A stretch of 64,000 bases of DNA from Luzula sylvatica (Eukaryota > Streptophyta > Magnoliopsida > Poales > Juncaceae). Below, in pieces: positions 118 to 58,571 of this stretch (its first letter is position 1; every line of letters begins with the position of its first letter). The stretch covers positions 69,747,264-69,811,263 of the forward strand of contig OX326958.1 in assembly GCA_946800325.1 (NCBI GenBank), in the 5' to 3' direction. Made by a program: the position numbers and the translations under genes. A model generated the notes under the pieces. It saw only the letters and a program-made list of their open reading frames with translations, did no database searches and was not told where the DNA came from.

Positions 118-122
118 CAAAT

Positions 123-436
123 TATTAATGTTTATAATGGACAATTCCAGTTTTGTTATCAAAGGAGATCTTCGCTGCTTGTAATTTTGTCTATTCTCCA
201 GTATGGAAGAGAGACGTGTCAATGTCTCTATAGACAGTACCCAGAATGAGAATATGCTGTAGGCCATCGTGACAGTTAGCAGTAATACGTGGTTAGTTTT
301 TAGTGAAGAAGAATAACTAGTAGGCCCTACAGTTTGTTATTACAAAGTGTATAAAACGATCTCCATTGTAAATGTGTCACTGTGGTAATGAAAAAGAAAA
401 GTTTTCTTCTAATAGTGTTTTTCACTTAATCTATCA
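123..436 (+). repeat. 5' LTR of the copia element
   Basis: This is a 314-bp LTR matching 6099-6412 base for base except one C/T difference. It ends in ..CTATCA. The 3' copy starts TGTATTAATG, but here the sequence passes straight from the target copy CAAAT to TATTAATG, so the canonical terminal TG is lost. As the promoter-bearing LTR it would drive element RNA; a TATAAA-like motif lies near 350. Confidence 0.93.
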
Positions 437-450
437 TGGTATCATGAGCC
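437..450 (+). promoter_or_regulatory. Primer binding site (initiator tRNA-Met type)
   Basis: TGGTATCATGAGCC follows the LTR directly. It matches the usual plant copia primer site complementary to the initiator tRNA-Met 3' end, except for one extra T before GAGCC. Whether priming tolerates that base is unknown. Confidence 0.85.
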
Positions 451-515
451 ACTGAGCCACCGCTCACCATTTTTTTTTTTTTTCGTTCTTTCTTTCTCCT
501 CTCTAGTTTATCTTA
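451..515 (+). other. Copia leader with polypyrimidine tract
   Basis: A short untranslated leader with a run of 14 T and a C/T-rich stretch ending CTCTCTAG, followed by the ATG at 516. The tract plus AG resembles a 3' splice site, which may be coincidental. The copia gag start codon expected here is replaced by the ATG of the badnavirus-like segment. Confidence 0.5.
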
Positions 516-1688
516 ATGGTTAACTCGGGCACCTCAATTGACCCAACAACAAAGAAAGAGGTGAAAGACAAAGAAAGGATGGTATTTAATTACCGGACAC
601 TAAACGATAATACTCATAAAGACCAGTATAGCCTACCCGGAATAAATACTATTCTCAAGAAGATCGGAAAAAGTAAAATCTACTCGAAATTCGATCTAAA
701 GAGTGGGTTCCACCAAGTCGCCATGGACCCAGAGTCAATACCCTGGACAGCTTTCGTAGTTCCAGGAGGATTATACGAATGGTTAGTGATGTCTTTCGGC
801 TTGAAAAATGCACCAGCGATATTCCAACGAAAAATGGACAATTGTTTTCGCGGAACTGAGGAGTTTATAGCAGTTTATATCGATGATATACTAGTATTCT
901 CAGAAAGTGAACGAGAACATGCGGAACACCTGTCGAAAATGCTGGGAATATGTGAGAAGGAGGGTCTAATACTCTCCCCGACAAAGATGAAGATTGCGGT
1001 CCAAGAAATTGAGTTCCTTGGAGCTGTAATCGGTAACAGGCGTATCAAGCTTCAACCTCATGTCATAAAGAAGATTATTGAGTTTGATGAGGAGAAATTA
1101 AAAGAGAAAGCAGGGCTCCGAGCATGGTTGGGAATTCTCAACTATGCCAGATCGTATATTCCAAAGCTCGGAACCCTTTTGGGTCCTTTGTATACAAAAA
1201 CCAGCCCTCATGGAGATAAACGCCTAAAAAGTTCTGATCTCGAACTTATTAAAACCATTAAGAAGGAGGTTCAGCATCTTCCAAACTTGGAACTCCCACC
1301 CACGGGCGCATATATTATCCTAGAAACCGACGGATGTATGGAGGGATGGGGAGGAGTTTGTAAATGGAAACCGATGAAAAACGACCCACGAAGCGTTGAA
1401 CGGGTCTGTGCATATGCTTCGGGAAAATTCCCGGTTATTAAATCCACTATTGATGCAGAGATATATGCCTGTATGGAAACAATGAAGGCATTGAAAATCC
1501 ATTATCTTGACCAGAAGGAAATAACCCTCCGAACGGACTGCCAAGCGATTATTAGTTTCTATAACAAGACAGCCGTGAATAAACCTTCGAGAGTAAGATG
1601 GATAAATTTTGTGGATTTTGTTACAGGAACAGGAGTACAAATAAATTTCGAGCATATAGAAGGAAAAAACAATGTGCTTGCTGACTCT
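516..1688 (+). other. Captured badnavirus-type reverse transcriptase/RNase H module
   Basis: The first 391 codons of the chimeric frame are typical of Caulimoviridae (badnavirus group) pol, not of copia or Ty3. The RT palm has FDLKSGFHQVAMDPES (59-74), FGLKNAPAIFQRKMDN (94-109) and YIDDILVFS (121-129). RNase H keeps all four catalytic acids: D272, E315, D341 and D390. There is no stop or frameshift. The segment begins just before the first conserved RT block and ends one residue after the last RNase H catalytic aspartate, so movement, coat and protease regions are absent. In the parent family these domains copy pregenomic RNA into DNA. Here the piece is an endogenous fragment inside a transposon, not a viral genome. 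The exact 3' junction (about 1683-1695) is uncertain to a few codons. Confidence 0.9.
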
Positions 1689-4118
1689 GCTCCCTCTCCT
1701 CTTACCACATCTACGCCTCTTTCATCTCCGGTTCTTTTCGCATCTGATAAAGTAACTACTACTTTCACACACCAAATTCCTTTCAAATTAGATGCAAATA
1801 ATTTCCTTCTGTGGAAATCACAAATCTCTCCCATTCTATCAGCATATGATTTGCTCGGATATGTTGATGGTTCTCTCACTCCTCCACCTCAACTCATTAT
1901 TCCTTCACGTGAGTCCACCACTCTTACCGTCAATCCTGAGTTTCAACAATGGCATCGCCAAGATCAATTTTTGCTTGGTTGGTTAATCTCATCCTTAACA
2001 GAATCCATTCTTTCACAAGTTCTCAACTGCAAAACTTCTGCTGAGTTATGGAAATCCCTTCACACCACTTTCAACTCTAAGACCATGGCTCATATCATGG
2101 ACTTAAAAGCCAAGCTTCAAACTCTAAAGAGAAATAATATGTCATGTGATGAGTATATTAATCAAATGCAAACTATTGCTGATCGATTAGCCTCTATTGG
2201 AAGCCCAGTCAGTGATCTAGATTTGAGTTTAGCTGTTCTTTATGGTCTTGGTTCAGATTACAATTCTTTTGTTGCTTCTATCTCTTTTCAAACTCAACCT
2301 CCCAAACTCTCTGAACTTGCTGGTTATCTTAGGAGTCATGAACGACTTCTAGAACAACAAAACTCTGCTCCAATCATCAACATTGCTACTAAAGCACCCA
2401 CTCCTTCTTATTCGTACTCAAATCCCCATCAGACTCACTACTCTTACAATCCAAACTTCTCTCAAGGGTCCAACACATTTCCAGGACCTAATTATCGTCC
2501 ACCTAATATTCGTTCCTCATTTCCACAAGTAAATCAACCCAATGCTCAAAATCCTCTTCAACAATATGTACCTCATCCGAATCGAGGCAGGGGCAGAGGT
2601 AGAGGTCGCGGACCTAAATGCCAAGTTTGTGGAAGAATTGGGCATGTTGCATTACGATGTTGGGATAGATTTAATCACAACATACAGCCTTTACCTCCTC
2701 AGCAACAACAATCGCAACATCCACAGGCACCACAACAGCATCCTCAAGCTCTCCTCGCAAATCCAGCTCCACAACAGCATCCTCAAGCACCACCTGCCGA
2801 GTGGTTTTTAGACTCTGGAGCCACACACCATGTAACAAATGATCTCAACATACTCTCTCAAGCGCAATCCTATCATGGTTCAGATCAAGTCTACATTGCC
2901 AATGGTCAGGGTCTCTCTATATCTCATATTGGTTCAACTTTTCTCTCAAATAGTTCAATTCTGTTAAAGAATGTTCTTGTTGTTCCAAATATATCAAGAA
3001 ATCTTCTTAGTATCTCCAAATTATTATCTGATAATAATATTGTCGTTGAGTTTAACTCTGATTTCTGTCTTCTTAAGGAACGTATCAATCTCAAGCCTCT
3101 TCTTCAGGCGCCACTCACTAATGGGCTTTACACTATTACTCCATCATCAGTCTCCTCTCCGATCTCTGTAAACTCCGTTCAAAAAGCTTCTGCTGATATT
3201 TGGCATCAAAGATTAGGACATGCCTGTTCATCTACTGTTTCTTTTCTTCTTCAATCAAGTCAGTTGTCATCCTATGTACACAAACTGAGTTTCTGCGGCG
3301 CATGTTGTCAAGGAAAATCGAGTCAATTACCATACATCTGTTCCTCTTCTCGTTCTATCAAACCTCTACAACTCATTCATTCTGACCTATGGGGTCCAGC
3401 TTCATGTCAGTCATCTCAGGGGTCACGATATTACATTGTGTTTATTGATGATTTTACAAAGTTTGTATGGATTTATTTCTTAAAAACAAAGGATGAAGTT
3501 TTTAGTATTTTTGTTAAATTTAAAGCCTATGTTGAAAACCTTCTTTCATCTTCTATTCAATCTCTCCAAATTGACGGTGGAACAGAATACAAGCCAATCA
3601 TTAAACACTTTCCTCAAATACACTTTCAAATATCATGTCCCTATACTCCACAACAAAATGGAGTCTCTGAACGTAAACATAGAAACATAATAGAACTCTC
3701 TCTTGCATCTATGGCTAAAGCTAAAATACCACAAATATATTGGGAAGATGTATTCTCCAGCATAGTCTTTCTCATAAATAGACTACCTCCTATTTCATCT
3801 CCTCGAATTTCACCTTTTGAACTTCTCTTTTCCAAGCAACCTGATTATAATTTCCTACGTGTTTTAGGATGTCTTTGTTATCCCCATATAAGGCCATACA
3901 CAAAATCTAAATTAGATTTCCGATCCATACCTTGTGTATTTATGGGCTACTCTAGTATATATAAAGGTTATAAATGCATACATCTTCCTACAAACAAAAC
4001 ATACATTTCTCGTAATGTCTCGTTTGATGAAACATCTTTTTCGTTTCATACACATTCAGATATTACTTCGCCCATGACAGCCTCATTTATTGATCCTGCT
4101 CTAACAATTATTTCTTAG
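516..4118 (+). CDS. Chimeric ORF: badnaviral RT/RNase H fused to copia gag-protease-integrase
   Basis: A 1200-codon open frame. Residues 1-391 are badnavirus-type RT and RNase H (YIDD at 121-124). Copia gag follows from about 392, with a gag domain at about 420-615. Then come an RG-rich stretch (690-699), a CX2CX4HX4C zinc knuckle (C702 to C715), an aspartic protease with DSGA at 766-769, a GAG-pre-integrase HHCC region (about 896-931), and integrase with the D957, D1020, E1052 triad. The ATG is the first in-frame one after the leader. The frame ends at TAG 4116-4118, inside the linker before copia RT; the same frame continues open to 6104. The stop therefore looks like a CAG-to-TAG type lesion rather than a natural gene end. 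The product would be made in the cytoplasm and self-processed. Whether it is translated as a fusion is not known. Confidence 0.9.
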   Translation: MVNSGTSIDPTTKKEVKDKERMVFNYRTLNDNTHKDQYSLPGINTILKKIGKSKIYSKFDLKSGFHQVAMDPESIPWTAFVVPGGLYEWLVMSFGLKNAPAIFQRKMDNCFRGTEEFIAVYIDDILVFSESEREHAEHLSKMLGICEKEGLILSPTKMKIAVQEIEFLGAVIGNRRIKLQPHVIKKIIEFDEEKLKEKAGLRAWLGILNYARSYIPKLGTLLGPLYTKTSPHGDKRLKSSDLELIKTIKKEVQHLPNLELPPTGAYIILETDGCMEGWGGVCKWKPMKNDPRSVERVCAYASGKFPVIKSTIDAEIYACMETMKALKIHYLDQKEITLRTDCQAIISFYNKTAVNKPSRVRWINFVDFVTGTGVQINFEHIEGKNNVLADSAPSPLTTSTPLSSPVLFASDKVTTTFTHQIPFKLDANNFLLWKSQISPILSAYDLLGYVDGSLTPPPQLIIPSRESTTLTVNPEFQQWHRQDQFLLGWLISSLTESILSQVLNCKTSAELWKSLHTTFNSKTMAHIMDLKAKLQTLKRNNMSCDEYINQMQTIADRLASIGSPVSDLDLSLAVLYGLGSDYNSFVASISFQTQPPKLSELAGYLRSHERLLEQQNSAPIINIATKAPTPSYSYSNPHQTHYSYNPNFSQGSNTFPGPNYRPPNIRSSFPQVNQPNAQNPLQQYVPHPNRGRGRGRGRGPKCQVCGRIGHVALRCWDRFNHNIQPLPPQQQQSQHPQAPQQHPQALLANPAPQQHPQAPPAEWFLDSGATHHVTNDLNILSQAQSYHGSDQVYIANGQGLSISHIGSTFLSNSSILLKNVLVVPNISRNLLSISKLLSDNNIVVEFNSDFCLLKERINLKPLLQAPLTNGLYTITPSSVSSPISVNSVQKASADIWHQRLGHACSSTVSFLLQSSQLSSYVHKLSFCGACCQGKSSQLPYICSSSRSIKPLQLIHSDLWGPASCQSSQGSRYYIVFIDDFTKFVWIYFLKTKDEVFSIFVKFKAYVENLLSSSIQSLQIDGGTEYKPIIKHFPQIHFQISCPYTPQQNGVSERKHRNIIELSLASMAKAKIPQIYWEDVFSSIVFLINRLPPISSPRISPFELLFSKQPDYNFLRVLGCLCYPHIRPYTKSKLDFRSIPCVFMGYSSIYKGYKCIHLPTNKTYISRNVSFDETSFSFHTHSDITSPMTASFIDPALTIIS

Positions 4119-6104
4119 CACAGGTCTAAGGAAGCTCAACCCGAAATTATTCCTCAGCCCACTATACAAATCTCTCCACAAATAAATACTCAGCCCAGTA
4201 TTTCTCGGCCCACAGTACAACCTTCTCCACAATTACCTTCTCAGCCCACAATAGCTCCACAAACTTTATCTCCACATAACAACTTATTCAATGAACCCTC
4301 ACTAAATTCATCTCAGCCCATAATACTCGAGCATAACCATTCACACAGCAATATTGAGCTCGTTCACTCACCTAACCCATCAGATTCATCCAATAACTCA
4401 CAAACTCAACCTACCATCTCTTCTTCTCTAAATGAACCTCCCCAGCATCAAAATAATCATTCCATGATTACTCGAAACAAAGACAACACAAGAAAGATTC
4501 GAGCTTTTCCAGATCACCTTCTCTATAATGTCACATCTCGTCTTCCAATTGAAGAACCAACATGCTTCACCTCTGCTAATAAAGACCAACTCTGGCGTGA
4601 TGCAATGAGTAATGAACTCAATGCTCTGGCTATAAATCAAACCTGGATATTGGTGCCACCGCCGTCTGATAGAAAGATCATTGGATCAAAATGGGTGTAT
4701 CGTATTAAAAGGAAATCGGATGGGACTATTGAGCGTTTCAAAGCCAGATTAGTCGCTCAAGGATTTAATCAGGATGAAGGGATAGATTACTTCGATACAT
4801 TCAGTCCTGTGGTCAAGCCAACGACAATTCGAATAATCCTGACTGTGGCACTATCCAAAGGCTGGATGATAAACCAACTAGATGTCGACAACGCATTTCT
4901 CAACGGCGAACTCGAAGAACAAGTGTATATGAAGCAACCCCCTGGTTATCCAAGCTCTCTCTATCCTCACCATGTATGTATGCTCAAAAAGGCTATTTAT
5001 GGCCTTAAGCAAGCACCTAGGGCATGGTTCAATAAGCTTCGTATGACTCTCGCTGAATTCGGTTTGCATCCGTCGCATTCTGATCAATCTCTATTTATTC
5101 GAATTCTCAATGGTGAATCTTTATTTCTATTGGTTTATGTCGATGATATAATAATCACAGGGTCAAATCCAAAAGCAATCCATCAACTCATTTCAGATTT
5201 AAATAACAAGTTTCGTCTGAAAGATCTCGGACCCCTACATTACTTTCTTGGAATTCAGGCAAACTTCTCAAATTCTGGGCTATTCCTCTCTCAAAAGCGA
5301 TATATTCAATCTCTCTTAGTAAAGGCAAATATGGCAAATGCCAAGCCAGTTCAATCCCCAATCTCCACAACAGAACAATTATCCAAATTCTCGGGTAATC
5401 CTCTTTCTGATCCTTTTCTCTATCGTAGTTTAATTGGGGGTCTTCAATATCTTACGATCACGAGACCAGATATTAGTTTTGCTGTGAACAAGTGTTCGCA
5501 ATATATGCAAAATCCCACTGATAATCATTGGAGTGCTGTCAAGCGTATCCTTCGTTATCTAAGAGGAACCGAAAATCAAGGTTTATTCTTATCAAAATCA
5601 TCCGATTTGGGTATTAATACTTATTGCGATGCCGATTGGGCAAATTGCCTTGATGACAGGAGATCCACGACAGGATTTTGTGTATTTTTGGGTAAAAATT
5701 TGGTCTCTTGGAACTCGAAGAAACAACCTACTGTTGCTAGATCCTCTACTGAAGCTGAGTACAGAAGTATGGCAATGGCAACTATGGAGGTTATGTGGAT
5801 TCAAACGCTCTTAACAGAGCTTCAGATTCCATTATTTGTCACACCTGTTCTATGGTGTGACAATTTAGGTGCAACGTTCTTAGCCTCGAACCTGGTATTT
5901 CACGCGAGAACGAAACACATAGAAGTGGATTTTCATTTTGTGCGAGAACGAGTCAGTTTAAAGCATCTCCGTGTTTCCTTCATCAGCTCCTCGTCACAAA
6001 TTGCTGATGTTCTTACGAAAGCTTTACCAACAAATAAGTTCAGGGAACTTCGTTTCAAGCTCACAGTACATGCTGTACCTGCTTCTCTTGAGGGGGTGTA
6101 TTAA
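4119..6104 (+). pseudogene. Copia pol C-terminal part: RT and RNase H downstream of the in-frame stop
   Basis: Continues the 516-4118 frame without a shift after the TAG at 4116-4118. The first 115 codons are a Pro/Gln/Ser-rich linker. From the internal Met at 4464, the copia RT domain (RVT_2 type) follows: WRDAMSNEL, KWVYRIKRK, LDVDNAFLNG, AIYGLKQAPRAW, and the catalytic YVDD at residues 225-228 counted from 4464. RNase H follows with YCDADWA and the typical closing DVLTKALP. The stop codon TAA at 6102-6104 lies inside the first bases of the 3' LTR. All motifs are intact, so the only visible lesion in copia pol is the upstream TAG. The Met at 4464 is internal and not a real gene start. Confidence 0.9.
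6090..6096 (+). promoter_or_regulatory. Polypurine tract
   Basis: GAGGGGG lies directly before the TG of the 3' LTR. It is the expected primer for plus-strand synthesis in LTR elements. Confidence 0.8.
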
Positions 6105-6412
6105 TGTTTATAATGGACAATTCCAGTTTTGTTATCAAAGGAGATCTTCGCTGCTTGTAATTTTGTCTATTCTCCAGTATGGAAGAGAGACGTGTCAATG
6201 TCTCTATAGACAGTACCCAGAATGAGAATATGCTGTAGGCCATCGTGACAGTTAGCAGTAATACGTGGTTAGTTTTTAGTGAAGAAGAATAACTAGTAGG
6301 CCCTACAGTTTGTTATTACAAAGTGTATAAAACGATCTCCATTGTAAATGTGTCACCGTGGTAATGAAAAAGAAAAGTTTTCTTCTAATAGTGTTTTTCA
6401 CTTAATCTATCA
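6097..6412 (+). repeat. 3' LTR of the copia element
   Basis: A 316-bp LTR starting TGTATTAATG and ending CTATCA, followed by the target copy CAAAT (6413-6417). It retains the terminal TG that the 5' copy has lost. Confidence 0.94.
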
Positions 6413-7347
6413 CAAATAATCTTTTTTTGTCCACCTTATATTGAATGGTGGGGTGATATTGGAGGCATTGCATATTTCCCAAATAGTAAGGAAAATACTT
6501 TTTCATATTTATCTTTGGAAAATTTAAAAAACATAGAATAATATATAATATATAGAGAATTTTTTGGGGAAATTAATTAAAAGAATAAAGAACAAATGCT
6601 GTAACTGTTGATGAATGAATCTTTTAATACATATTATGAAATTTGATAAAATTATTTTAGTATACTATTTTTTTTTTAATTAAGAGGATTAACATCTTAG
6701 GTGTTGGTATATAATAAAGAAGAAACGAAGGATTACATCTTTCTTAAATTGATAAACGAATGAATCTTGTTAAAAGAAACGAAGTATACTATTTTTGTAT
6801 ACTATTAATCAACCAAAATAGTAAAATAAAGATAAAGCAATATTTTGCAAAAAAAAAATCTGTAAATAATGAATTGAACTATAAATTAAAGATAAAATAA
6901 TATGTTGCGTACAAAATAATAATTCTCATATAGCAAAAAGATGTGCGGAGGTAAAACGACAAAATAAAGAATGTAACTTAAAATATTATTGTAAGTTAAA
7001 ACAAATTATACAATTGCTCTGAAGGATTACATCTTCAAGTTTGACTCCTCTCAATTTATGTGTCAAATGGAGACATCATCCTTGTTTTTCCTTATGCTTG
7101 ACAACCATGTAAATATAGAACACACAGAAGATCCTGATGCATGTTGTAGGGGAAATACGTGATATTTTTAGATTTTCTCGAACCTTCATATACAGGTTTG
7201 GTAATTCAAAAGTTGAAATTTGGATCCGAATATTCTTCTCTCATCTAAAACTATGTAATTCGAACATTGAGATTGAGATCGATCTTCTCCCCTATATATG
7301 AGCAAGTCATTTCATTCTCTCTCCCCATTTTCATTTTTAGATCTAAT

Positions 7348-8446: not shown

Positions 8447-10684
8447 GTATTTTTGTTCTACGATTTTTGTGTGTTTTTTTTCTAAGAAGTGTTGATTTTT
8501 CAGAAAATGATAATTAAAATTTTAATTTCTAGTTTGGATGGCTATGTGTCCATTGAGAATATTTTGTCTCATCAAAAGGAAAATAAAATAAATTGTCCCT
8601 TTATTTTTAAACATATTAATTATCAATTCTTATTTCTCATGTGTAAGTAGAAAATACGCTTACATAATTTCTTAGAACATATTTTGAAGCACATTAAAAA
8701 TAAAACATATAAATAAAGCAATTTCTGCTAACGCGCCAATTTGGATACGCCAGAAAGTTACTTGCATCGTCAATGACTGAACAATGATGTAAAAAGTAAT
8801 AAAAGTATGAACTAAACCAATGTACAAATAAATTATGGTACATTATTTTTTTTTTCATCCTTTCGCACATCACAAAATTTATAGTTATAATTTTGATGAC
8901 CTGGTTTTACGAGAGATTGAAGATATGTGCAAATTTTGTTTGAATATTTTCGAAGGACACACAATTATTTTGCAGGGCACACAAATGGAAATTGCTCCCA
9001 CCGATGGGTTGTACTTTACACGTGAAAATTGTACGTGCAGAATTTTTAAATTCAAGCTATATGAATATATCTAGTCGAGTTAATTTTTTTATGCTTTCAA
9101 TTCTCAAAGCATTTTTTAAGAGAGAAATTATTTCTTGACCCCAAATTTCTCCAGCACATCATAAATTAATAATAAATAATTAATGAGGAACGAAAAGGAA
9201 TACGTACCGTGGATATCCTTGAGTCCAGTTGTAAAATGCAACATGTTTTTTTTTAAAATGCAACGTGTTAGTGGAGAAGGAAGAAGAAAGAAGTTGTTAA
9301 CGGAGAATTAACAAACACGGTGAATCTCATTGTATCAAGTACTTGACTAATACATATAAATATGTTTGAAATAATAAATATATCTTTCTAATGAGATAAA
9401 CAATTATGTAACCAACATAACTTTCATCTTAAATATTTTGATATTTCTCATGTTTTTTCTTTATTTCTGGAGAATTAACAAACGACAATGTAGGCAAAAT
9501 TGATAGAAAAGAAATATTATGATATTTCTCATGCTTTTTTTTAGAGGTATACATGTTATTCTCAGTATTATACGGGCATTTATTATTTTATTTTATGTTT
9601 TATGAGAATATACGGTATACATGATATTTATTTTTGATATTGAAACTTAATAAATATATCGCTTCAATGAAAATCTTATGATTTTGATATTGAAATAATA
9701 ATTACATGAAACACAAAATAATATATAGGATGATTTTATAGTAGAATTTTTTCTTAATTAGATGGATAAGATTTTCATACAAATTAATTCAAAGATTGTG
9801 ATTCAATCCATTTACGGTAGATCCTTAATTAAAAAGGGTAAATGATAATTATTTTCAATGCTCTCTCATCTTTTTTGGTAACTCCTCATTCTCTCTTTCT
9901 CCCTCTCTCTTGCATTGAATCACCCTATTTCTTTTTTATTTTCGGATCTGAGAATTAACTACTTGTAGATTTTGCAATATTTGCAATCTTTACAATATTT
10001 GCAGATCCAAATAATATTTGAAAAATCATACGATTACTTGTAATTAACAATATGACTAATTTGCTTAATTTACATACTTTTACATATTTGTATTAATTGA
10101 TAAATTCGTAATTGAAAAATAATTTGAGACCAAATTTGAAATATTGATTTGTGAGTTTGTGTTAATTGTTAAATGACATATTGGTGAATATATGGAATGA
10201 ATATTAATTGTGTTAAATCAAAGATTTAATTATCTGTGTTAGTTAATAAATTTTGAAATATTAATTTTAACTAATGATATATTGAATTAATGACTATATA
10301 TTTTTTATTATAGATCTCTTAATTAGGTGTGTTACAAAATTATTATATGAAATATATAGGCAAAATTATTATATTAATCGATATAGTTAAAATGAACGGC
10401 AGTACAAATTGTGCTCGCATCAAGACCTGGCAGGTAGGCCCCACTTATTTTATTTTAATGTCATTTGATAGTATACAAATAATATACCAATGTTCCTCAT
10501 ACAGGGAGGGTGAGGCTCAGAAACCCCTTGCAAGACTCAGGTTCGATTTGTCAAGTGTATCATTATCTGAATTTTAGCTTGATTGGGCTAGTTAAGTGTA
10601 TCATTATCTGAATTTGAGATTTATTAGATCTTATAATTTAGAACTGGATCTGAGTGAATTGGCAGTTGTTGACGTTGAGGAATG

Positions 10685-12195
10685 TTTTAATTAATTTGAT
10701 TTTGGCAGAGAAAAGGAACTGTTACCTCATCTTTGGCAGCGAGCAAATGTTTAGGGCGCTAAAGCTTCATTTCTGCCAGCGAATAATTGTAGAAGTCACA
10801 AAAACTTCATTTTTGGCAGCCAAAAATCGAAAGGGCACTAAAAGTTCTTGTTGGCAGCCAAAAAGAGATGAAACTCCAACTTTGGTAACGAAAAAAGGAA
10901 AATAGCACTTAAAAGTTTTTTTTGGCAGAGAAAAAGATAAATGCGGCACCAAAAGATACTAATTGGTAGCGAAAAGGTAAACGGCGCTTAAAGTTGTTTT
11001 TGGTAGTCAAAAAGGAAGCGGTACTAAAAGTTATTTTTGGCAGCGGAAAAGAATATAGCGGCACTAAATATACCTTTTGGTAGCACAAGTTTGAACGGCA
11101 CTAAACATTTTTTCTGCATCTCGAAAAGAAACTGGCACTAAAAGATCTTGTTGGCAGCTAAAAAGATAAAACGGCAATAAAAAGCCTTTTTGGTAGCTAA
11201 ATGGCAAACGGCAAGTTTTTTGCAGCATAAATAGGAAGCAGCACAAAAAGATCTTTCTAGTAGCAGAAAAGAAAAGGCACAAAAAGATACTTTTTTTGAA
11301 GCGAAAAGAGAATTGACACTATTTTTTTTTTGGCAGCAAATAATGCAAGAGCCTCTAAAAGATCTTTTTGGCAGTTGAAAATATAAAACAGCACTAAAAG
11401 GCACTTTTTGGTAGCAAAAGGAAATGGCACAAGAAGTTTTTTGGGCAGCAAGGCAAGAAGTGGCACTAAAATATCTTTTTGGCTCTGAAAGACAAAATGG
11501 CACTAAAAGTACTTTTTGGTAGCAAAAGGGAAACGGCTCTAAAAGTTGTTTGCAGCCATTAAATGTCACTAAAAGATCTTTGTGGCAGCGTAAAAGCCAA
11601 AAGGCATTAAAAGATACTTTTGGTAGCTAAAAAGGAAATGGCACATTTTTTTGGCAGGAAAAAGAGTGGCACTAAAAGATCTTTTCAGCAGCTGAAAAGA
11701 TAAAGCAGCACTAAAAGTTTCTTTTTGTAGCGTTAGGTAACGACACTAAAAGTTTTTGCTGCAAAATAGGAAGTGGCACTAAAAGATGCTTTTTGGTAGC
11801 TAAAGCCAAACGACGCTAAATGTCTTTTCTGGCAGCCAAAATAGAAAGTGGCACTAAAAGATTATTTTTACAGACGAAAAGATGAAATGGCTCAATATTT
11901 TTTTTGGTACCATTTACTTTTTAGCTACCAAAAAGTATCTTTTAGTGCCTTTTTCATTTTACGCTGCCAAAAATATCTTTTAGTGCCTTTTTCATTTTAC
12001 GCTACCAAAAAGTATCTTTTAGTGCCTTTTCATGTATTAGCTGCCAAAAATATCTTTAGTGCCTCTTCCATTTTTTGCTGCCAAAAAAACTTTTAGTGTC
12101 ATTTTCCTTTTCGCTCCCAAAAAGTATTTTTTTTGTGCCTTTTTCTTATCTGCTGCCAGAAAGATCTTTTAGTGCCACTTCTTTTAGTGCCCTTG
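10685..12195. repeat. Tandem sub-repeat array inside the left arm, with orientation switch
   Basis: A divergent tandem array of roughly 50-60-bp units built on GGCACTAAAAGAT-C-TTTTTGG-CAGC, spaced by short variable AAAAG-rich stretches. From about 10690 to 11905 the units run one way. From about 11908 to 12195 they are in the opposite orientation (TTTTAGTGCC, GCTGCCAAAAA). The array recurs in the right arm at about 24690-26200. Sub-repeats within long terminal inverted repeats are a known trait of foldback elements. Confidence 0.8.
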
Positions 12196-12574
12196 GCCTT
12201 TTAGCTTCCAATTTTTTTTTTTATTTGTCCAAGCCCCCTTGCATTCAAATTAAAATGTTGCAAGATAGTCTTGAGGAATTTATCGTTTGTCTGTTTGGAG
12301 GACCCTCATATATAAAAAAATAAAAATAAAAAAAGCTGGGCCGTTAATGAATGTGGTGGATTTTAGAAGGGGGTCGGCCTACGCGCCAAGGGATTGAGTG
12401 ATTGACTCGTTGAGTAGGACATTTGGAGGACCCTCATATATAAAAACTTTGTAATATAATATTAGCCCATTTGGTGGTAAGGAAATGAAGCCCGTTATTT
12501 TCGTAAAATTAACTCATTGAGTAGGAGAAAATTTAATTGACTTGGGCTAAGAAATTATTTTACCCAAGTGTGAT

Positions 12575-12626
<52 letters not shown>
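12575..12626 (+). repeat. Poly-G homopolymer, 52 nt
   Basis: A 52-base run of G on the + strand. It is mirrored by a 50-base poly-C at 24262-24311 in the other arm and is the only internal length difference between the arms. It could form G-quadruplex structure. Confidence 0.95.
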
Positions 12627-12627
<1 letters not shown>

Positions 12628-15242
12628 GTTAGTTGTTCATAAACAAAATTGTATTAATGGAGAAACTGTATTATTATTATTTATTTTATTTGGAAATATA
12701 TTGTATTAAAAATATTTTTTTTCACATGATTGGTCATGATAAAGTGTGTATGTTGCGTCAAATAATTTTGTCGTTTAGCAATATGTTTAAATAATTTAGG
12801 CTTACTATCGTCATTAGGACCAAACAAAAAACAAGTCTACTAATACAAGGTAATCAAAAGTAAAACCAAACAAAAAACCACTCAATTATTTGCATCAATC
12901 ATGTAGACAATGTTGAAAAACACTTTTTTGTATTAATGTTATAAAATACAAATATAAACAAATGCTTACATCTCATTTCTTTTTGTATAACCACATGACT
13001 TAATGACAAATACTATGCACGACATCGGTATTTAAATGCAAGTACGTTTGAGTTTTAAAGAACTTACTATTTGAAGGAAAATACATATTAAATTCTCTAT
13101 TTTAATATGATCACACAATTTAATAAATATTATAAAGTTCTCAATTTATTTATTTATAGAGAAATTTCAGAATGGGCTCTGTGACCCATACCTGAAAGTT
13201 ATGCATTTCACATGATAAAAAAATTTACAATGTTTTTTATTTTATTTTTACATTTGCTAAAACTGACCTTTAAATTTCCTAAATAACACTTAACTAAACA
13301 TAAAGAAAAGGAAAAAATATATATATGATTCATGCCAATTACTTAAATTTTCAGATTTTTAAACAAAAAAAAGTATTTCAATATTGATTTCCAATCAACA
13401 TTTTTTGCTTGTTTTGGTATCAATAACTGAAAACATGAGAAAAGAATTACATTTTTTTTACTACAATACAATGAACTCACAAAATCAGTAGTGAACCTTT
13501 TTGAGAATAAAATCAGTAGTAAACTATGAAATTCTTGTACTTTTGCTTCTTTTCTGATCAGCAAATCTATCTCAATCTTTGTGAGGTTCCCCTAAATCTT
13601 CTCTCTTCATTTTTTTTCCATTTTTTTTTTGTCTCCATCAAAAAAAATTAAAAATGGAAAATTCTTAATCACCTGGAAAATACTTTTTTTATTTTAATAT
13701 TTTGGAAAATTTGTTTTTTTTAGAATATTGTTGTATAATGCGAGGATGTGTGTGTTTCAAACAAAATATCGTAAGGAGTTATAATAATTATAGTTTTAAA
13801 AATTATATTATTGTACAATTTTTGTAAGTCATAATTTAAAAAATACTGATAGTTACATTTAGAAGTTACTAATGTAATTATAATTATTTTTATATTCTGT
13901 TTTCTTACGTAATTACTTTCATAACTTTGAGTTAGAGAAAATTATTGGATATATGATAATATAAAATCAAAACAAAGATAAAATTCAAATGATATTTCAT
14001 AATTTTTAAAATTATATTTTTAAAAATACTAATAACATTTGATGTATGTTTTATAATATTATATATTAATTTATCAGTATTAGATATTTAAATTATTCAC
14101 ATTTCATTTGTATTCACATTTGATCATATAACATAATTTGAAATAATTTAAAATTAAATACAACTGGAAACAACATGAATTTAACGAATATTATTTCGCA
14201 CGTCATCAATGTATAGTAATATGATCTTATAAAATTAATCAAAATTATGTGTAAAATAATGATTACATAAATATCTACAAATTCAATATAAAAAATTTAA
14301 TGATTGAAAATTACATACAAAATTTGTATCTAAAATAAACACGTCAAATCATGACTTTCTTTTCTTCTCATTTGAAAACTGGGCCACTCCACTTACGTCA
14401 TCTACTTTTTACATTCTTGGAAGAATTGGGCCACTTTTAATGCTAATGCTGGCATGACAATTGACAAGAGTCAAGAGAGCTACTAAACTCGAAAATACAA
14501 ACAATTAATCCTACTATAATATTTTATAAATATTTTTCTCAAATCTCTGATTGCCACGTCATTATTCACTCCACGGATTTGAAAAATAGCCTTAACTGTA
14601 TTCAAATTTCATGATATCCCTTCGTTAGGCATTATTTTGGAACCTTTTCTTCTTCAAAGCTTTCCATGATATCCGTTCTTCTTCGAAGCTTAACTCTACA
14701 CCTCCACGATGCCTCTTATTATCTCCAAATCTCCACAGACGATTGTCCCAAATCTCAGGCGGCGCTCTTTCACTTCGTTTCATATCTCACTCAAAACGAC
14801 TTTCACGAAATGGAGTCGCGTTCCTTCTCTCTTTGTTTTTTGCTCGGCATAGCGACAGAACATGAAACGCAAATTGGGTTGGAAAAGGTAGCTGGAAAAT
14901 AGGCGATTTTTTCTTTCTCTCGTCTCTCATCTCTCATCTCGATCCTTTGTTCTCTGTGGGCTGACCTAGCGAAAGAGTATATCTTTTGTTTTTCTTTAGT
15001 TCTTTTCTTCTACGTCATTCGATTGTGTTTGATTGTTTTTCGTTTTATACTAATTAGCGACGGCTTGTGATAAATTAGTGTTTAAGTGAGTGAATCAGGT
15101 ATAATTTCGCTGAATTAGAGTTTAGTTTCTAATTTATGATATTAATTTTGTAATTTTTATCATTTTTTTTTTCTTCAGATGGCAACAAATATTCCATCTT
15201 CAATTTCGCCGTAACAGAGAAGAAAATGGACGTGAGTAGGTA

Positions 15243-22180: not shown

Positions 22181-24260
22181 GTCATGTGTGTGCCTTATTC
22201 GTGTTGTCTTTTAATATGGATAGTACATAGTACATTTTTCTGTATTGTGTCAGCCAGGTTTATTGATATTAATGGTATTGGGGCTATGACTATGAGCCAA
22301 TATTTTTGTGACCATTTATTTATATTGAAAGATGACGTGGCTTAAGCTTTCAATTTTTCTGTATTGTTGTCCTTTAAGATCTATTGTTTGTATTTTCGAG
22401 TTTAGTAGCTCTCTTGACTCTTGTCAATTGTCATGCCAGCATTAGCATTAAAAGTGGCCCAATTCTTCCAAGAATGTAAAAAGTAGATGACGTAAGTGGA
22501 GTGGCCCAGTTTTCAAATGAGAAGAAAAGAAAGTCATGATTTGACGTGTTTATTTTAGATACAAATTTTGTATGTAAATTTCAATCATTAAATTTTTTAT
22601 ATTGAATTTGTAGATATTTATGTAATCATTATTTTACACATAATTTTGATTAATTTTATAAGATCATATCACTATACATTGATGACGTGCGAAATAATAT
22701 TCGTTAAATTCATGTTGTTTCCAGTTGTATTTAATTTTAAATTATTTCAAATTATGTTATATGACCAAATGTGAATACAAATGAAATGTGAATAATTTAA
22801 ATATCTAATACTGATAAATTAATATATAATATTATAAAACATACATCAAATGTTATTAGTATTTTTAAAAATATAATTTTAAAAATTATGAAATATCATT
22901 TGAATTTTATCTTTGTTTTGATTTTATATTATCATATATCCAATAATTTTCTCTAACTCAAAGTTATGAAAGTAATTACGTAAGAAAACAGAATATAAAA
23001 ATAATTATAATTACATTAGTAACTTCTAAATGTAACTATCAGTATTTTTTAAATTATGACTTACAAAAATTGTACAATAATATAATTTTTAAAACTATAA
23101 TTATTATAACTCCTTACGATATTTTGTTTGAAACACACACATCCTCGCATTATACAACAATATTCTAAAAAAAACAAATTTTCCAAAATATTAAAATAAA
23201 AAAAGTATTTTCCAGGTGATTAAGAATTTTCCATTTTTAATTTTTTTTGATGGAGACAAAAAAAAAATGGAAAAAAAATGAAGAGAGAAGATTTAGGGGA
23301 ACCTCACAAAGATTGAGATAGATTTGCTGATCAGAAAAGAAGCAAAAGTACAAGAATTTCATAGTTTACTACTGATTTTATTCTCAAAAAGGTTCACTAC
23401 TGATTTTGTGAGTTCATTGTATTGTAGTAAAAAAAATGTAATTCTTTTCTCATGTTTTCAGTTATTGATACCAAAACAAGCAAAAAATGTTGATTGGAAA
23501 TCAATATTGAAATACTTTTTTTTGTTTAAAAATCTGAAAATTTAAGTAATTGGCATGAATCATATATATATTTTTTCCTTTTCTTTATGTTTAGTTAAGT
23601 GTTATTTAGGAAATTTAAAGGTCAGTTTTAGCAAATGTAAAAATAAAATAAAAAACATTGTAAATTTTTTTATCATGTGAAATGCATAACTTTCAGGTAT
23701 GGGTCACAGAGCCCATTCTGAAATTTCTCTATAAATAAATAAATTGAGAACTTTATAATATTTATTAAATTGTGTGATCATATTAAAATAGAGAATTTAA
23801 TATGTATTTTCCTTCAAATAGTAAGTTCTTTAAAACTCAAACGTACTTGCATTTAAATACCGATGTCGTGCATAGTATTTGTCATTAAGTCATGTGGTTA
23901 TACAAAAAGAAATGAGATGTAAGCATTTGTTTATATTTGTATTTTATAACATTAATACAAAAAAGTGTTTTTCAACATTGTCTACATGATTGATGCAAAT
24001 AATTGAGTGGTTTTTTGTTTGGTTTTACTTTTGATTACCTTGTATTAGTAGACTTGTTTTTTGTTTGGTCCTAATGACGATAGTAAGCCTAAATTATTTA
24101 AACATATTGCTAAACGACAAAATTATTTGACGCAACATACACACTTTATCATGACCAATCATGTGAAAAAAAATATTTTTAATACAATATATTTCCAAAT
24201 AAAATAAATAATAATAATACAGTTTCTCCATTAATACAATTTTGTTTATGAACAACTAAC

Positions 24261-24261
<1 letters not shown>

Positions 24262-24311
<50 letters not shown>
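24262..24311 (+). repeat. Poly-C homopolymer, 50 nt
   Basis: Mirror of the left-arm poly-G, two bases shorter. Confidence 0.95.
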
Positions 24312-24689
24312 ATCACACTTGGGTAAAATAATTTCTTAGCCCAAGTCAATTAAATTTTCTCCTACTCAATGAGTTAATTTTACGAAAATAACGGGCTTCA
24401 TTTCCTTACCACCAAATGGGCTAATATTATATTACAAAGTTTTTATATATGAGGGTCCTCCAAATGTCCTACTCAACGAGTCAATCACTCAATCCCTTGG
24501 CGCGTAGGCCGACCCCCTTCTAAAATCCACCACATTCATTAACGGCCCAGCTTTTTTTATTTTTATTTTTTTATATATGAGGGTCCTCCAAACAGACAAA
24601 CGATAAATTCCTCAAGACTATCTTGCAACATTTTAATTTGAATGCAAGGGGGCTTGGACAAATAAAAAAAAAAATTGGAAGCTAAAAGG

Positions 24690-26200
24690 CCAAGGGCACT
24701 AAAAGAAGTGGCACTAAAAGATCTTTCTGGCAGCAGATAAGAAAAAGGCACAAAAAAAATACTTTTTGGGAGCGAAAAGGAAAATGACACTAAAAGTTTT
24801 TTTGGCAGCAAAAAATGGAAGAGGCACTAAAGATATTTTTGGCAACTAATACATGAAAAGGCACTAAAAGATACTTTTTGGTAGCGTAAAATGAAAAAGG
24901 CACTAAAAGATATTTTTGGCAGCGTAAAATGAAAAAGGCACTAAAAGATACTTTTTGGTAGCTAAAAAGTAAATGGTACCAAAAAAAATATTGAGCCATT
25001 TCATCTTTTCGTCTGTAAAAATAATCTTTTAGTGCCACTTTCTATTTTGGCTGCCAGAAAAGACATTTAGCGTCGTTTGGCTTTAGCTACCAAAAAGCAT
25101 CTTTTAGTGCCACTTCCTATTTTGCAGCAAAAACTTTTAGTGTCGTTACCTAACGCTACAAAAAGAAACTTTTAGTGCTGCTTTATCTTTTCAGCTGCTG
25201 AAAAGATCTTTTAGTGCCACTCTTTTTCCTGCCAAAAAAATGTGCCATTTCCTTTTTAGCTACCAAAAGTATCTTTTAATGCCTTTTGGCTTTTACGCTG
25301 CCACAAAGATCTTTTAGTGACATTTAATGGCTGCAAACAACTTTTAGAGCCGTTTCCCTTTTGCTACCAAAAAGTACTTTTAGTGCCATTTTGTCTTTCA
25401 GAGCCAAAAAGATATTTTAGTGCCACTTCTTGCCTTGCTGCCCAAAAAACTTCTTGTGCCATTTCCTTTTGCTACCAAAAAGTGCCTTTTAGTGCTGTTT
25501 TATATTTTCAACTGCCAAAAAGATCTTTTAGAGGCTCTTGCATTATTTGCTGCCAAAAAAAAAATAGTGTCAATTCTCTTTTCGCTTCAAAAAAAGTATC
25601 TTTTTGTGCCTTTTCTTTTCTGCTACTAGAAAGATCTTTTTGTGCTGCTTCCTATTTATGCTGCAAAAAACTTGCCGTTTGCCATTTAGCTACCAAAAAG
25701 GCTTTTTATTGCCGTTTTATCTTTTTAGCTGCCAACAAGATCTTTTAGTGCCAGTTTCTTTTCGAGATGCAGAAAAAATGTTTAGTGCCGTTCAAACTTG
25801 TGCTACCAAAAGGTATATTTAGTGCCGCTATATTCTTTTCCGCTGCCAAAAATAACTTTTAGTACCGCTTCCTTTTTGACTACCAAAAACAACTTTAAGC
25901 GCCGTTTACCTTTTCGCTACCAATTAGTATCTTTTGGTGCCGCATTTATCTTTTTCTCTGCCAAAAAAAACTTTTAAGTGCTATTTTCCTTTTTTCGTTA
26001 CCAAAGTTGGAGTTTCATCTCTTTTTGGCTGCCAACAAGAACTTTTAGTGCCCTTTCGATTTTTGGCTGCCAAAAATGAAGTTTTTGTGACTTCTACAAT
26101 TATTCGCTGGCAGAAATGAAGCTTTAGCGCCCTAAACATTTGCTCGCTGCCAAAGATGAGGTAACAGTTCCTTTTCTCTGCCAAAATCAAATTAATTAAA
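24690..26200. repeat. Tandem sub-repeat array inside the right arm
   Basis: Reverse complement of the array at 10685-12195, with the same orientation switch (near 24980). Units centre on CTTTTAGTGCC and GCTGCCAAAAAG. Confidence 0.8.
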
Positions 26201-26849
26201 ACATTCCTCAACGTCAACAACTGCCAATTCACTCAGATCCAGTTCTAAATTATAAGATCTAATAAATCTCAAATTCAGATAATGATACACTTAACTAGCC
26301 CAATCAAGCTAAAATTCAGATAATGATACACTTGACAAATCGAACCTGAGTCTTGCAAGGGGTTTCTGAGCCTCACCCTCCCTGTATGAGGAACATTGGT
26401 ATATTATTTGTATACTATCAAATGACATTAAAATAAAATAAGTGGGGCCTACCTGCCAGGTCTTGATGCGAGCACAATTTGTACTGCCGTTCATTTTAAC
26501 TATATCGATTAATATAATAATTTTGCCTATATATTTCATATAATAATTTTGTAACACACCTAATTAAGAGATCTATAATAAAAAATATATAGTCATTAAT
26601 TCAATATATCATTAGTTAAAATTAATATTTCAAAATTTATTAACTAACACAGATAATTAAATCTTTGATTTAACACAATTAATATTCATTCCATATATTC
26701 ACCAATATGTCATTTAACAATTAACACAAACTCACAAATCAATATTTCAAATTTGGTCTCAAATTATTTTTCAATTACGAATTTATCAATTAATACAAAT
26801 ATGTAAAAGTATGTAAATTAAGCAAATTAGTCATATTGTTAATTACAAG

Positions 26850-56025: not shown

Positions 56026-56312
56026 ACCTAGGTTTGCAAAATAGAATTTTTTCAACTTTCTTTTGTCGAATTCATATTAACCTGCTAAATAGAAATTCTT
56101 ACCGGCTAGTTTTGCTAAAATATAGAAATTTTTGGTGTATCGAGAAAACCTCATCTAAATAAATGAGAGACTGACCTATGTAAGTAGTTGATTCCTATCC
56201 AATAGGTTTTTCCACGACTTAAAAGTGGTAAAATAATTTATTTCAAGAAGTCACGGAATTAGATAACATTGATTGATCTCAATTAGCTCTGAGAAGTTCA
56301 AATGATGGAACC
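56026..56312. other. Upstream flank of the P450 pseudogene
   Basis: No clear TATA box or other promoter element identified. An upstream ATG at 56301 opens a different frame; see the P450 entry. Confidence 0.4.
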
Positions 56313-58571
56313 ATGGCTTTCTTATTCTCTCTTATTCTTCTCTCTGATTCTCTTCTCTTTTTCAAACACAAATTAATTTCCAAAACTAACTCAATTAAGT
56401 CTCCACCAGGTCCATGGCAATACCCCATACTTGGAAACCTCTACAATTTGATTGGTTCTCTTCGTCATCATGCCATGCAGCACTTATCTTTGCGGTTCGG
56501 TCCAATTATGCTCCTTCAGCTCGGAGAGACTTCTACTATTGTAGTCTCTTCCCTTGACGGAGCAAGGGAAATCATGAAAGCCCGCGACATCACGTTTGCA
56601 ACGCGGCCAATTAACACCACGGTCCGCATCCTTAGTCAAGGAGGAAAGGGTTTAATCTTCCCTCCTTATGGAGAATACTGGCGACAGTTGCGGAAGATCT
56701 GTATTACGGAATTGTTTAGCTCGAAACGGGTCCTTTCGTTCAGGTCGATTCGCGAACAAGAAACAAAAAACCTAATTGAAACCATCTCTTCAAGTGCGTC
56801 TAATGGTCAAGTAGTCGATCTCAGTGAAAGGTTAGCGATAATGATTAATGATTCTGCGGCAAGGGCAATTTTTGGAAGCAAATGCAACGACCAAAAGTAC
56901 TCTTGAATGAGATCGATAGATCTAGCAAGATCGTGTCGGGTTTCAGTTTGGGAAATTTATATTTTATACCCCTCGTCTTGGCTCGTAAACCTCGTGAGCT
57001 TTATCAGCGGATCGAGACGTGAAGCCGAGAGTTGCCAGAGGACTAAAGCTGTCATAATGAACAGGATTATCGAACATCATAGAGAGAGAAGGAGAGGAGA
57101 GGGAGAGACGGATGATCTGGTCGACGTTCTACTAAGGATATGTGACGAAGGTGCGCTAGAGATTCCATTGGACATCGATACTGTCAGAGCCGTCACCACG
57201 GTGAGTTCTCTTCTTGAATTTGGCCACAAAATTTGTAGGTATATTTTCCTAATTTTTTTTTTTTAGAAAATATATTTTTCCTATTTTAGAATCAAAAGGG
57301 CAATAGTTTTGAGTTTATTAGTGATTTCACAATTACATATGGCATTAATGATTTTGAAGTACATGTTAAGTTCAAATAAGACGGGGATTATTAACCTAAA
57401 GATACACTGTTTTAATTAGTTTAGAGTGATGTCATGAAGTCTGATTACAATCTTTTCATTGTATCGACGAAGCAATGATAAATGAGCAAATAAACTCGAT
57501 TTATCGGATTTAACACATAATTTTATTGTAAATTTTATACATTTTTTTTTTTATTTATTTAGTTTACTATTAGTTGGCAACACATCAATGAACGTGTAAT
57601 AATTTAGAAGGACATGTATATTTTTTACTATTAGTTTATATATAATATGTACTGCTGGCCTAAAATTTGTTGATACAATAGTTTGTCAACCAAGACCATG
57701 AAACATTGTTATAGAAAAAGAGGTCATTGATCATGGAGATGGAGTGGAATTCTATTATGATCCTACAAAATGTTTTGCAAGAATATGTAGATTCCAAAGC
57801 ACGTCACAATCTCTCATCGATCACCTCATGATATTTTGCCTTTGAATTTCAGGATGTTTTTTCGGCAGGTAGCGGGACCTCGAAAAAGACTCTAGAGTGG
57901 GCCATGTCCGAGCTCATTCGCAATCCTACAATGATGGAAAAAGCACAATCAGAAATACGAGAACTCCTAAAAGGAAGAACGAATGTATACGAGTTGGATC
58001 TTCTTAAACTAAACTACTTGCATCTAGTCATCAAAGAGACGCTGAGGTTGCATCCACCAGCTCCTCTCCTCGTCCCAAGACAATGTCGCGAGAGATGCCG
58101 CATTTCTGGCTATGATTTCCCCCAAGGAGCAACCGTCATTGTGAATGCATGGGCCATTCGTAACCAATTTTGTCCCATCACAATAATATCATTATGTACA
58201 AGATACTGTGTTAAGTCAAATATTGGAGTGCTTTGCTTTCAATTATTTGATGTAGGCAGAGATCCAAAATACTGGGAAGATCCAGAGGAGTTCAAGCCAG
58301 AAAGATTCATTAACAACAATGTTGATTTCAAGGGTCGAGTTTCTCCCATTCGGTGCGGGTAGAAGAATCTGTCCTGGCCATGTCGTTTGGCTTAGCAAAT
58401 GTCGAGTTGCCATTGGCCAACCTTCTGTACCATTTTGACTGGAAGCTTCCTGATGGAGCCAAACCTGAAGAAATCGACATGTCTGAGTCATTCGGAATCA
58501 CAATCGGAAGAAAAACTCCTCTAAAAGTACTGGCAACACCATATAAATGTGCTGTTGGCCTAGATGATTAG
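56313..58571 (+). pseudogene. Cytochrome P450, CYP71-like, inactivated
   Basis: Intact relatives are about 500-residue ER-anchored monooxygenases of specialised metabolism. Visible parts: hydrophobic N-terminus, PPGP hinge (31-34), helix-C WRQLRK (123-128), I-helix, ExxR (KETLR, about 58033), PERF (58297-58308), and heme loop [10 protein letters not shown] (58349-58378). The intron is 57201-57852; a second short GT-AG intron (58160-58255) restores A-I-R-R-D-P. Lesions: a 1-nt loss near 56895 causing TGA at 56904-56906, compensated by a 1-nt gain near 56960; a small deletion near 58338; an extra C near 58379. The I-helix reads AGSGTS (57865-57882), lacking the usual acidic residue. The 56301 ATG frame gives a more CYP71-like start (MEPWLSYSLLFFSLILFSF), hinting at another indel near 56370. 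Substrate cannot be inferred. Family call firm; pseudogene status likely unless these are assembly errors. Confidence 0.88.
57201..57852 (+). other. P450 intron
   Basis: GTGAG donor and TTTCAG acceptor, phase 0. It lies just before the I-helix, the conserved single-intron position of CYP71-type genes. AT-rich; no nested element recognised. Confidence 0.8.

Follow-up and report, generated by a model that had tools for sequence, protein, structure and literature searches.

A Ty1/copia element of Luzula sylvatica with a badnaviral RT-RNase H module at its gag start

A complete Ty1/copia retrotransposon, spanning positions 118-6417 of the 64,000-nucleotide stretch of Luzula sylvatica DNA analysed here (the window), carries a piece of badnaviral polymerase, in sense and in frame, at the place where gag starts in related elements, and gag's own start is lost. 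The badnavirus lineage is present in multiple copies in this genome, and the copia element in a single one. To account for this organization, we favour, with moderate confidence, a one-off capture in which the copia reverse transcriptase would have switched templates twice at microhomologies, within one reverse-transcription cycle, and thereby placed the badnaviral RT-RNase H at the gag start codon; the module would then likely be a passenger.

Organization of the element

The hallmarks of a copia element, LTR pair, 5-bp TSD, PBS and polypurine tract, are all present (Table 1). The two LTRs differ by one mismatch in 314 bases (381 versus 6357). With the substitution rate of 1.3e-8 used for LTR dating, this one difference corresponds to an age of about 0.12 My (95% range 0.003-0.68), and the element is young. 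It was also observed that a TG precedes the 3' LTR (GGGGGTG TATTAATG, 6097-6108) and that the 5' LTR opens with TATTAATG straight after the TSD (121-130). The absence of this TG before the 5' LTR reflects either the loss of 2 bp from the 5' end or a terminus that is non-canonical.

A single open reading frame extends from 507 to 4115. From N- to C-terminus, Pfam domains are arranged in it in the order RVT_1, RT_RNaseH, Retrotran_gag_2, Pol_BBD, gag_pre-integrs, rve (a match below the Pfam curated cut-off) and SH3, and RVT_2 is found in the frame segment that follows an in-frame TAG. The gag-PR-IN-RT-RNase H order and the copia-type RT (RVT_2) identify a Ty1/copia element, interrupted by one TAG between IN and RT. 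The first methionine 3' of the virus-copia joint is at 2085, that is 133 codons into the copia part, and gag has no start of its own near the joint. Thus, a near-complete Gag could be obtained from this copy only as a viral fusion. With the TAG at 4116-4118 and the gag start lost, the copy is predicted to lack autonomous coding capacity.

Table 1. Positions, in the window, of the features of the chimeric element.
Feature	Position	Strand	Remarks
TSD, 5' copy	118..122	+	CAAAT
5' LTR	123..436	+	314 bp, TATTAATG...CTATCA, TATA-like stretch near 350
copia leader	437..513	+	PBS-like TGGTATCATGAGCC at 437
5' joint	514..519	+	TAATGG, common to the virus and compatible with copia leader and start codon (copia side deduced)
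Badnavirus RT-RNase H module	516..1688	+	391 codons, ATG at 516
Viral polymerase motif	876..887	+	YIDD
Viral RNase H motifs	1320..1685	+	LETDG (1320), DAEI (1452), RTDC (1530), VLAD (1674-1685)
3' joint	1683..1687	+	GACTC, last bases shared with the virus; copia only from 1688
copia gag, protease, integrase	1689..4115	+	gag with zinc knuckle
In-frame stop	4116..4118	+	TAG, between integrase and RT
copia RT and RNase H	4119..6104	+	RVT_2, YVDD; same frame as 507-4115
Polypurine tract	6087..6098	+	CTTGAGGGGG, then TG
3' LTR	6099..6412	+	314 bp
TSD, 3' copy	6413..6417	+	CAAAT

Identity of the N-terminal module

Among solved structures, the module is best matched by the CaMV RT (8r0s, 240 bits), followed by the Ty3 RT (174 bits). 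In the best 40 rows of a database search, it is about 82-86% identical to 15 of 16 endogenous badnavirus polyproteins of Rhynchospora and 74% identical to the remaining one. In a quick tree of 105 rows, the module falls inside a supported set (97) of 19 rows, made of the module itself, one JGI protein and 17 Rhynchospora proteins, and a caulimovirid RT is nearer to it than the RT of Ty3 or of copia. All four RNase H acids are kept. A frame left open by chance was ruled out, as 0 of 20000 shuffles stayed open.

Retrotran_gag_2 was seen in none of the first 120 of the 228 module-like proteins, nor was RVT_1 or RT_RNaseH seen in any of the 53 matches to the gag region. One annotated protein of Tanacetum cinerariifolium (P0118) associates a badnaviral RNase H with a copia Pol_BBD. 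It is possibly a second, independent virus-copia junction, or else a gene-model join.

Joints and position of the gag start

Viral DNA homology covers exactly 514-1687 in 26 of the 29 endogenous copies read, the other three being shorter matches. No viral flank was found on either side of the piece, and searches of the window with pieces of three polyproteins gave no further viral match. At the 5' joint, TAATGG is preceded by GGCAA in the virus versus TATCT in the window. Past GACTC, at the 3' joint, the virus continues with its own codons and the window with copia. No filler DNA was seen at either joint.

An earlier note on this DNA had described, in an element with near-identical LTRs and a TSD, a badnaviral RT-RNase H that bears YIDD and the full set of four RNase H acids and is joined in frame to copia gag. 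This description holds, including the grouping of the module RT with Caulimoviridae rather than with Ty3 or copia that the note had proposed as a check. However, the note had read gag-PR-IN-RT-RNase H as one unbroken fusion, and the in-frame TAG had been overlooked. Its viral segment, 516-1688, is right for the viral codons but not for the boundaries of the DNA homology.

In comparison with copia relatives, the piece is located where gag starts. In 16 of 19 relatives, gag starts 22-37 codons before a conserved gag motif, which is absent in the other three. A PBS could be recognized in 15 relatives, and in these gag starts 49-122 nt after it. Here, 79 nt separate the PBS from the viral ATG, and the shared DS/ADS residues stand 27-28 codons before the gag motif. 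Among the gag starts of the relatives are M-D-S (L008), M-D-P (L009-L011 and L021) and M-A-D-P (L004); others exist. The original copia sequence across the gag start would have been TAATGGACTC. If a copia start ATG-GAC-TCT is assumed, six bases are shared at one joint and five at the other, and no copia base is lost. The viral side of the joints is read directly, and the copia side, with the pre-capture sequence, the microhomology and the absence of copia loss, is deduced from relatives at most 70% identical.

Copies of the virus and of the element in the host genome

The host assembly (445 Mb, 37 contigs) was searched by scoring the best candidates for each query, a procedure that weak copies may escape but near-identical ones should not. 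The LTR query gave two matches in the assembly, both being the element's own LTRs. Beyond the element itself, the next best match was 70% identical for the copia core DNA (best 40 of 87 candidates) and 69% identical for the gag-PR-IN protein (best 56 of 5492 candidates). For the viral module, 42 matches were obtained, that is 41 besides itself (best 40 of 45 candidates scored). Twelve of the endogenous copies are near full-length at 94-98% identity, with a top value of 97.9%. With 1.5-kb flanks included, the virus was found in none of the 19 fetched copia relatives, and copia in none of the 29 fetched viral loci.

The earlier note had proposed to ask whether other full-length copies of the LTR family share the viral segment. 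The searches, in which neither LTR nor core revealed a second copy, speak against a chimeric family. Several module copies with identical joints, as in a fixed family with a second RT/RNase H (aRNH-like), were likewise seen neither in the assembly nor among the 19 relatives. For the favoured capture, it is nevertheless odd that so young an element stands alone, with no parental copy.

The endogenous badnavirus copies of this genome (L024-L052) form two groups, 92-98% and 80-82% identical to the module. The frame is free of stops in 20 of 27 near-full-length endogenous module regions, which suggests recent badnavirus invasions. Two of the copies, L028 and L029 (G000 C6:2147095-2149581), have mutually identical module regions, inverted and about 140 bp apart. 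Besides, a higher-copy copia group (L022, at G000 C6:43712037, and similar loci) shows 48-49% identity, and its frames stay open over about 1700 codons. Ahead of the gag match, the frame of L022 has 243 further open codons; this stretch is proline-rich and has no similarity to the viral module.

Possible mechanisms of capture

Ty1/copia, the type of the recipient element, is also that of Onsen. In the portions of the cited papers that are available, template switching is considered for plant LTR elements (PMC5668417) and proposed for Caulimoviridae (PMC9794742), and recombination between caulimovirids and LTR elements is also proposed (PMC10377300). In the double-switch model, minus-strand synthesis on a copia RNA would reach the gag start and jump, at GACTC, onto a packaged badnaviral RNA. 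After copying of 1.17 kb of this RNA, a return jump at TAATGG would bring synthesis back onto the copia RNA, and the chimeric product would integrate normally, giving the 5-bp TSD. The original RNA would have owed its mobility to an element, or to proteins, no longer seen here. Double template switching would account for a piece that lies in sense, has clean joints and is conserved inside.

Microhomology joints can also come from DNA repair. In the main rival model, the copia element would have integrated first, and a later break at the gag start would have been mended, through microhomology, with badnaviral DNA. In favour of this model, endogenous badnavirus copies are plentiful in this genome, and repair involving filler DNA is one of the two standing hypotheses for caulimovirid integration (PMC10377300). 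The model fits the microhomology and would leave LTR identity and TSD unaffected. It has nevertheless to explain a clean 1.17-kb sense fragment with filler-free joints, located at the gag start of an interior of about 5.7 kb. A sense and in-frame insertion would have a chance of about 1 in 6, and orientation alone is not decisive. Altogether, we regard this model as rather unlikely, though deserving serious attention.

It may also be imagined that the fusion is older and jumped as a unit, the present copy being the sole one left or assembled, and that the module may be kept because it is working. That neither the LTR nor the core DNA nor the protein query revealed a second copy makes this improbable, despite the near-identical LTRs and intact TSD of the element. 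A wholly open module, with its RNase H acids kept and its few changes mostly synonymous, could point in the same direction; yet these changes are compatible with selection that acted on the virus prior to capture, as seen for further copies of the clade, and with an LTR age of about 0.12 My (0.003-0.68) the openness requires no selection since. Finally, an artificial junction between an endogenous virus and copia, produced during library preparation or assembly, which a single locus might evoke, is hardly credible, considering that both LTRs, the TSD and unbroken copia sequence flank the 1.17-kb piece in a window free of N, and that the module, at least 2.13% different from every near copy compared, is not a misplaced one.

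Timing and selection

Aligned with its protein clade, the module departs from the majority residue at 50 columns, of which two belong to the 138 near-invariant ones (P 2.8e-8). With respect to near copies, 13 DNA changes are private to the module, 9 synonymous and 4 non-synonymous (P 0.001 against 75% non-synonymous, in a test leaving out L029, one of two identical copies). One of the two changes at conserved sites is common to L026 and therefore predates the capture. The same pattern of changes is displayed by near copies other than the module, as expected if all of them sample one viral population. Hence, the module acquired nearly all its divergence in the virus, under selection, and only a short time has passed after the capture; this provides no evidence of selection since then.

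Completeness and possible function of the module

According to the offset given by structure alignment, the module corresponds to about residues 81-469 of the 474-residue CaMV RT. The CaMV domain map used for numbering, as given in the available part of its source, assigns residues 1-35 to the N-terminal palm (PMC11363490). On this map, the module has no N-terminal palm and only about half of the fingers, and the RT domain is incomplete. The RNase H half is near-complete, the module ending one residue past the last catalytic acid. In the modelled module, the mean pLDDT is about 34 over residues 1-100 and about 76 over the RNase H half; in the one control protein, which has its N-terminus (P0055), it is about 53 in the corresponding polymerase region and about 70 in the RNase H, both models being weak, with mean pLDDT values of 59.5 and 54.4, and built on shallow alignments of 15 rows. 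On these grounds, the polymerase of the module is probably dead, and its RNase H is possibly able to fold.

Today, the module is likely a passenger rather than a working part, because the N-terminal palm and part of the fingers are missing, each Gag would bear 391 extra residues and the TAG severs the copia RT. The intact YIDD and RNase H acids and the open frame run counter to this reading, since a decayed passenger need not show them; however, a short time since capture allows a passenger to be intact and open. An added polymerase function is less plausible, as the polymerase half is truncated. A much more doubtful idea is that the viral RNase H, folded at the N-terminus of Gag, would be packaged into copia particles, where it would cut RNA-DNA hybrids and thereby alter or inhibit, in trans, the reverse transcription of related copia elements or that of the badnavirus. 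With a truncated polymerase and a lost gag start, an RNase H-Gag would be the only product that this copy could deliver. Capsid-targeted nuclease fusions engineered on Ty1 and retroviral Gag resemble such an arrangement.

Relation to known systems

The ingredients of the chimera are each known already; their combination, a copia element with a viral RT-RNase H in place of its gag start, was not met in the literature searched, a scope outside which most subscription journals fall. The comparisons below concern the available portions of the cited papers. In Musa balbisiana, an endogenous banana streak GF virus is flanked by Ty3/gypsy, and a recombinant integration was proposed (Gayral et al., via PMC10377300). 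As in the present case, a badnavirus and an LTR retrotransposon are found at one locus. However, the retrotransposon there flanks the virus and simultaneity is disputed, whereas here the 1.17-kb viral piece is inside a complete copia element, with LTRs and TSD, in frame at the gag start. Caulimovirid-host co-transcripts, as well as badnavirus EVEs and Ty1-copia at the eggplant R1 locus, have been reported (PMC8346255). These cases share with ours RT-RNase H pieces fused to other transcripts, and copia and badnavirus at one locus. In contrast, the fusion partners are host genes, and copia is drawn, in the portion available, as separate boxes without polyprotein fusion.

Gene transduction and additional ORFs are documented in plant LTR elements, such as maize Bs1 (PMC7264820). 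There too, an LTR element has taken up foreign coding sequence in the sense direction, and such captures mostly exist as one copy or a few, but the sequence lies between pol and the 3' LTR; here, the source is a virus and the piece replaces the gag start. Wendovirus, a caulimovirid group with a second protease (PMC9794742), is another case of module gain by a reverse-transcribing element for which template switching was proposed. In that case the virus gains from other caulimovirids, whereas here a retrotransposon gains from a virus. Retrotransposons with a gained foreign enzyme domain are also exemplified by insect R1 LINEs, with a tobamovirus-like helicase domain (PMC4686597), and by an orchid Ty3/gypsy, with an m6A demethylase domain (PMC9289625). 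These domains are fixed in their families; in the present case, there is one copy, and the acquired domain duplicates an activity with which the element was already equipped.

Badnaviruses are devoid of integrase, and one proposed route for their entry into plant chromosomes is recombination with LTR retrotransposons (PMC10377300). At the locus described here, the two joints of such a chimera are placed to within a few bases, its LTRs are near-identical, a TSD is present and the parental virus lineage resides in the same genome. The locus also shows an LTR element with its gag start taken over by a viral enzyme. Sequence exchange between badnaviruses and LTR elements becomes directly testable by resequencing the species.

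Other features of the window

Elsewhere in the window, a 4.47-kb inverted repeat has arms at 10037-14505 and 22383-26849, 99.87% identical and 7.9 kb apart, which contain matching ORFs at 11138-11626 (-) and 25260-25748 (+). It is either a recent inverted duplication or an assembly effect. Exons of a plant cytochrome P450 (CYP71-like) are found at 56277-58362, with best matches in Carex rostrata (63%), Rhynchospora (57%) and Juncus effusus (55%).
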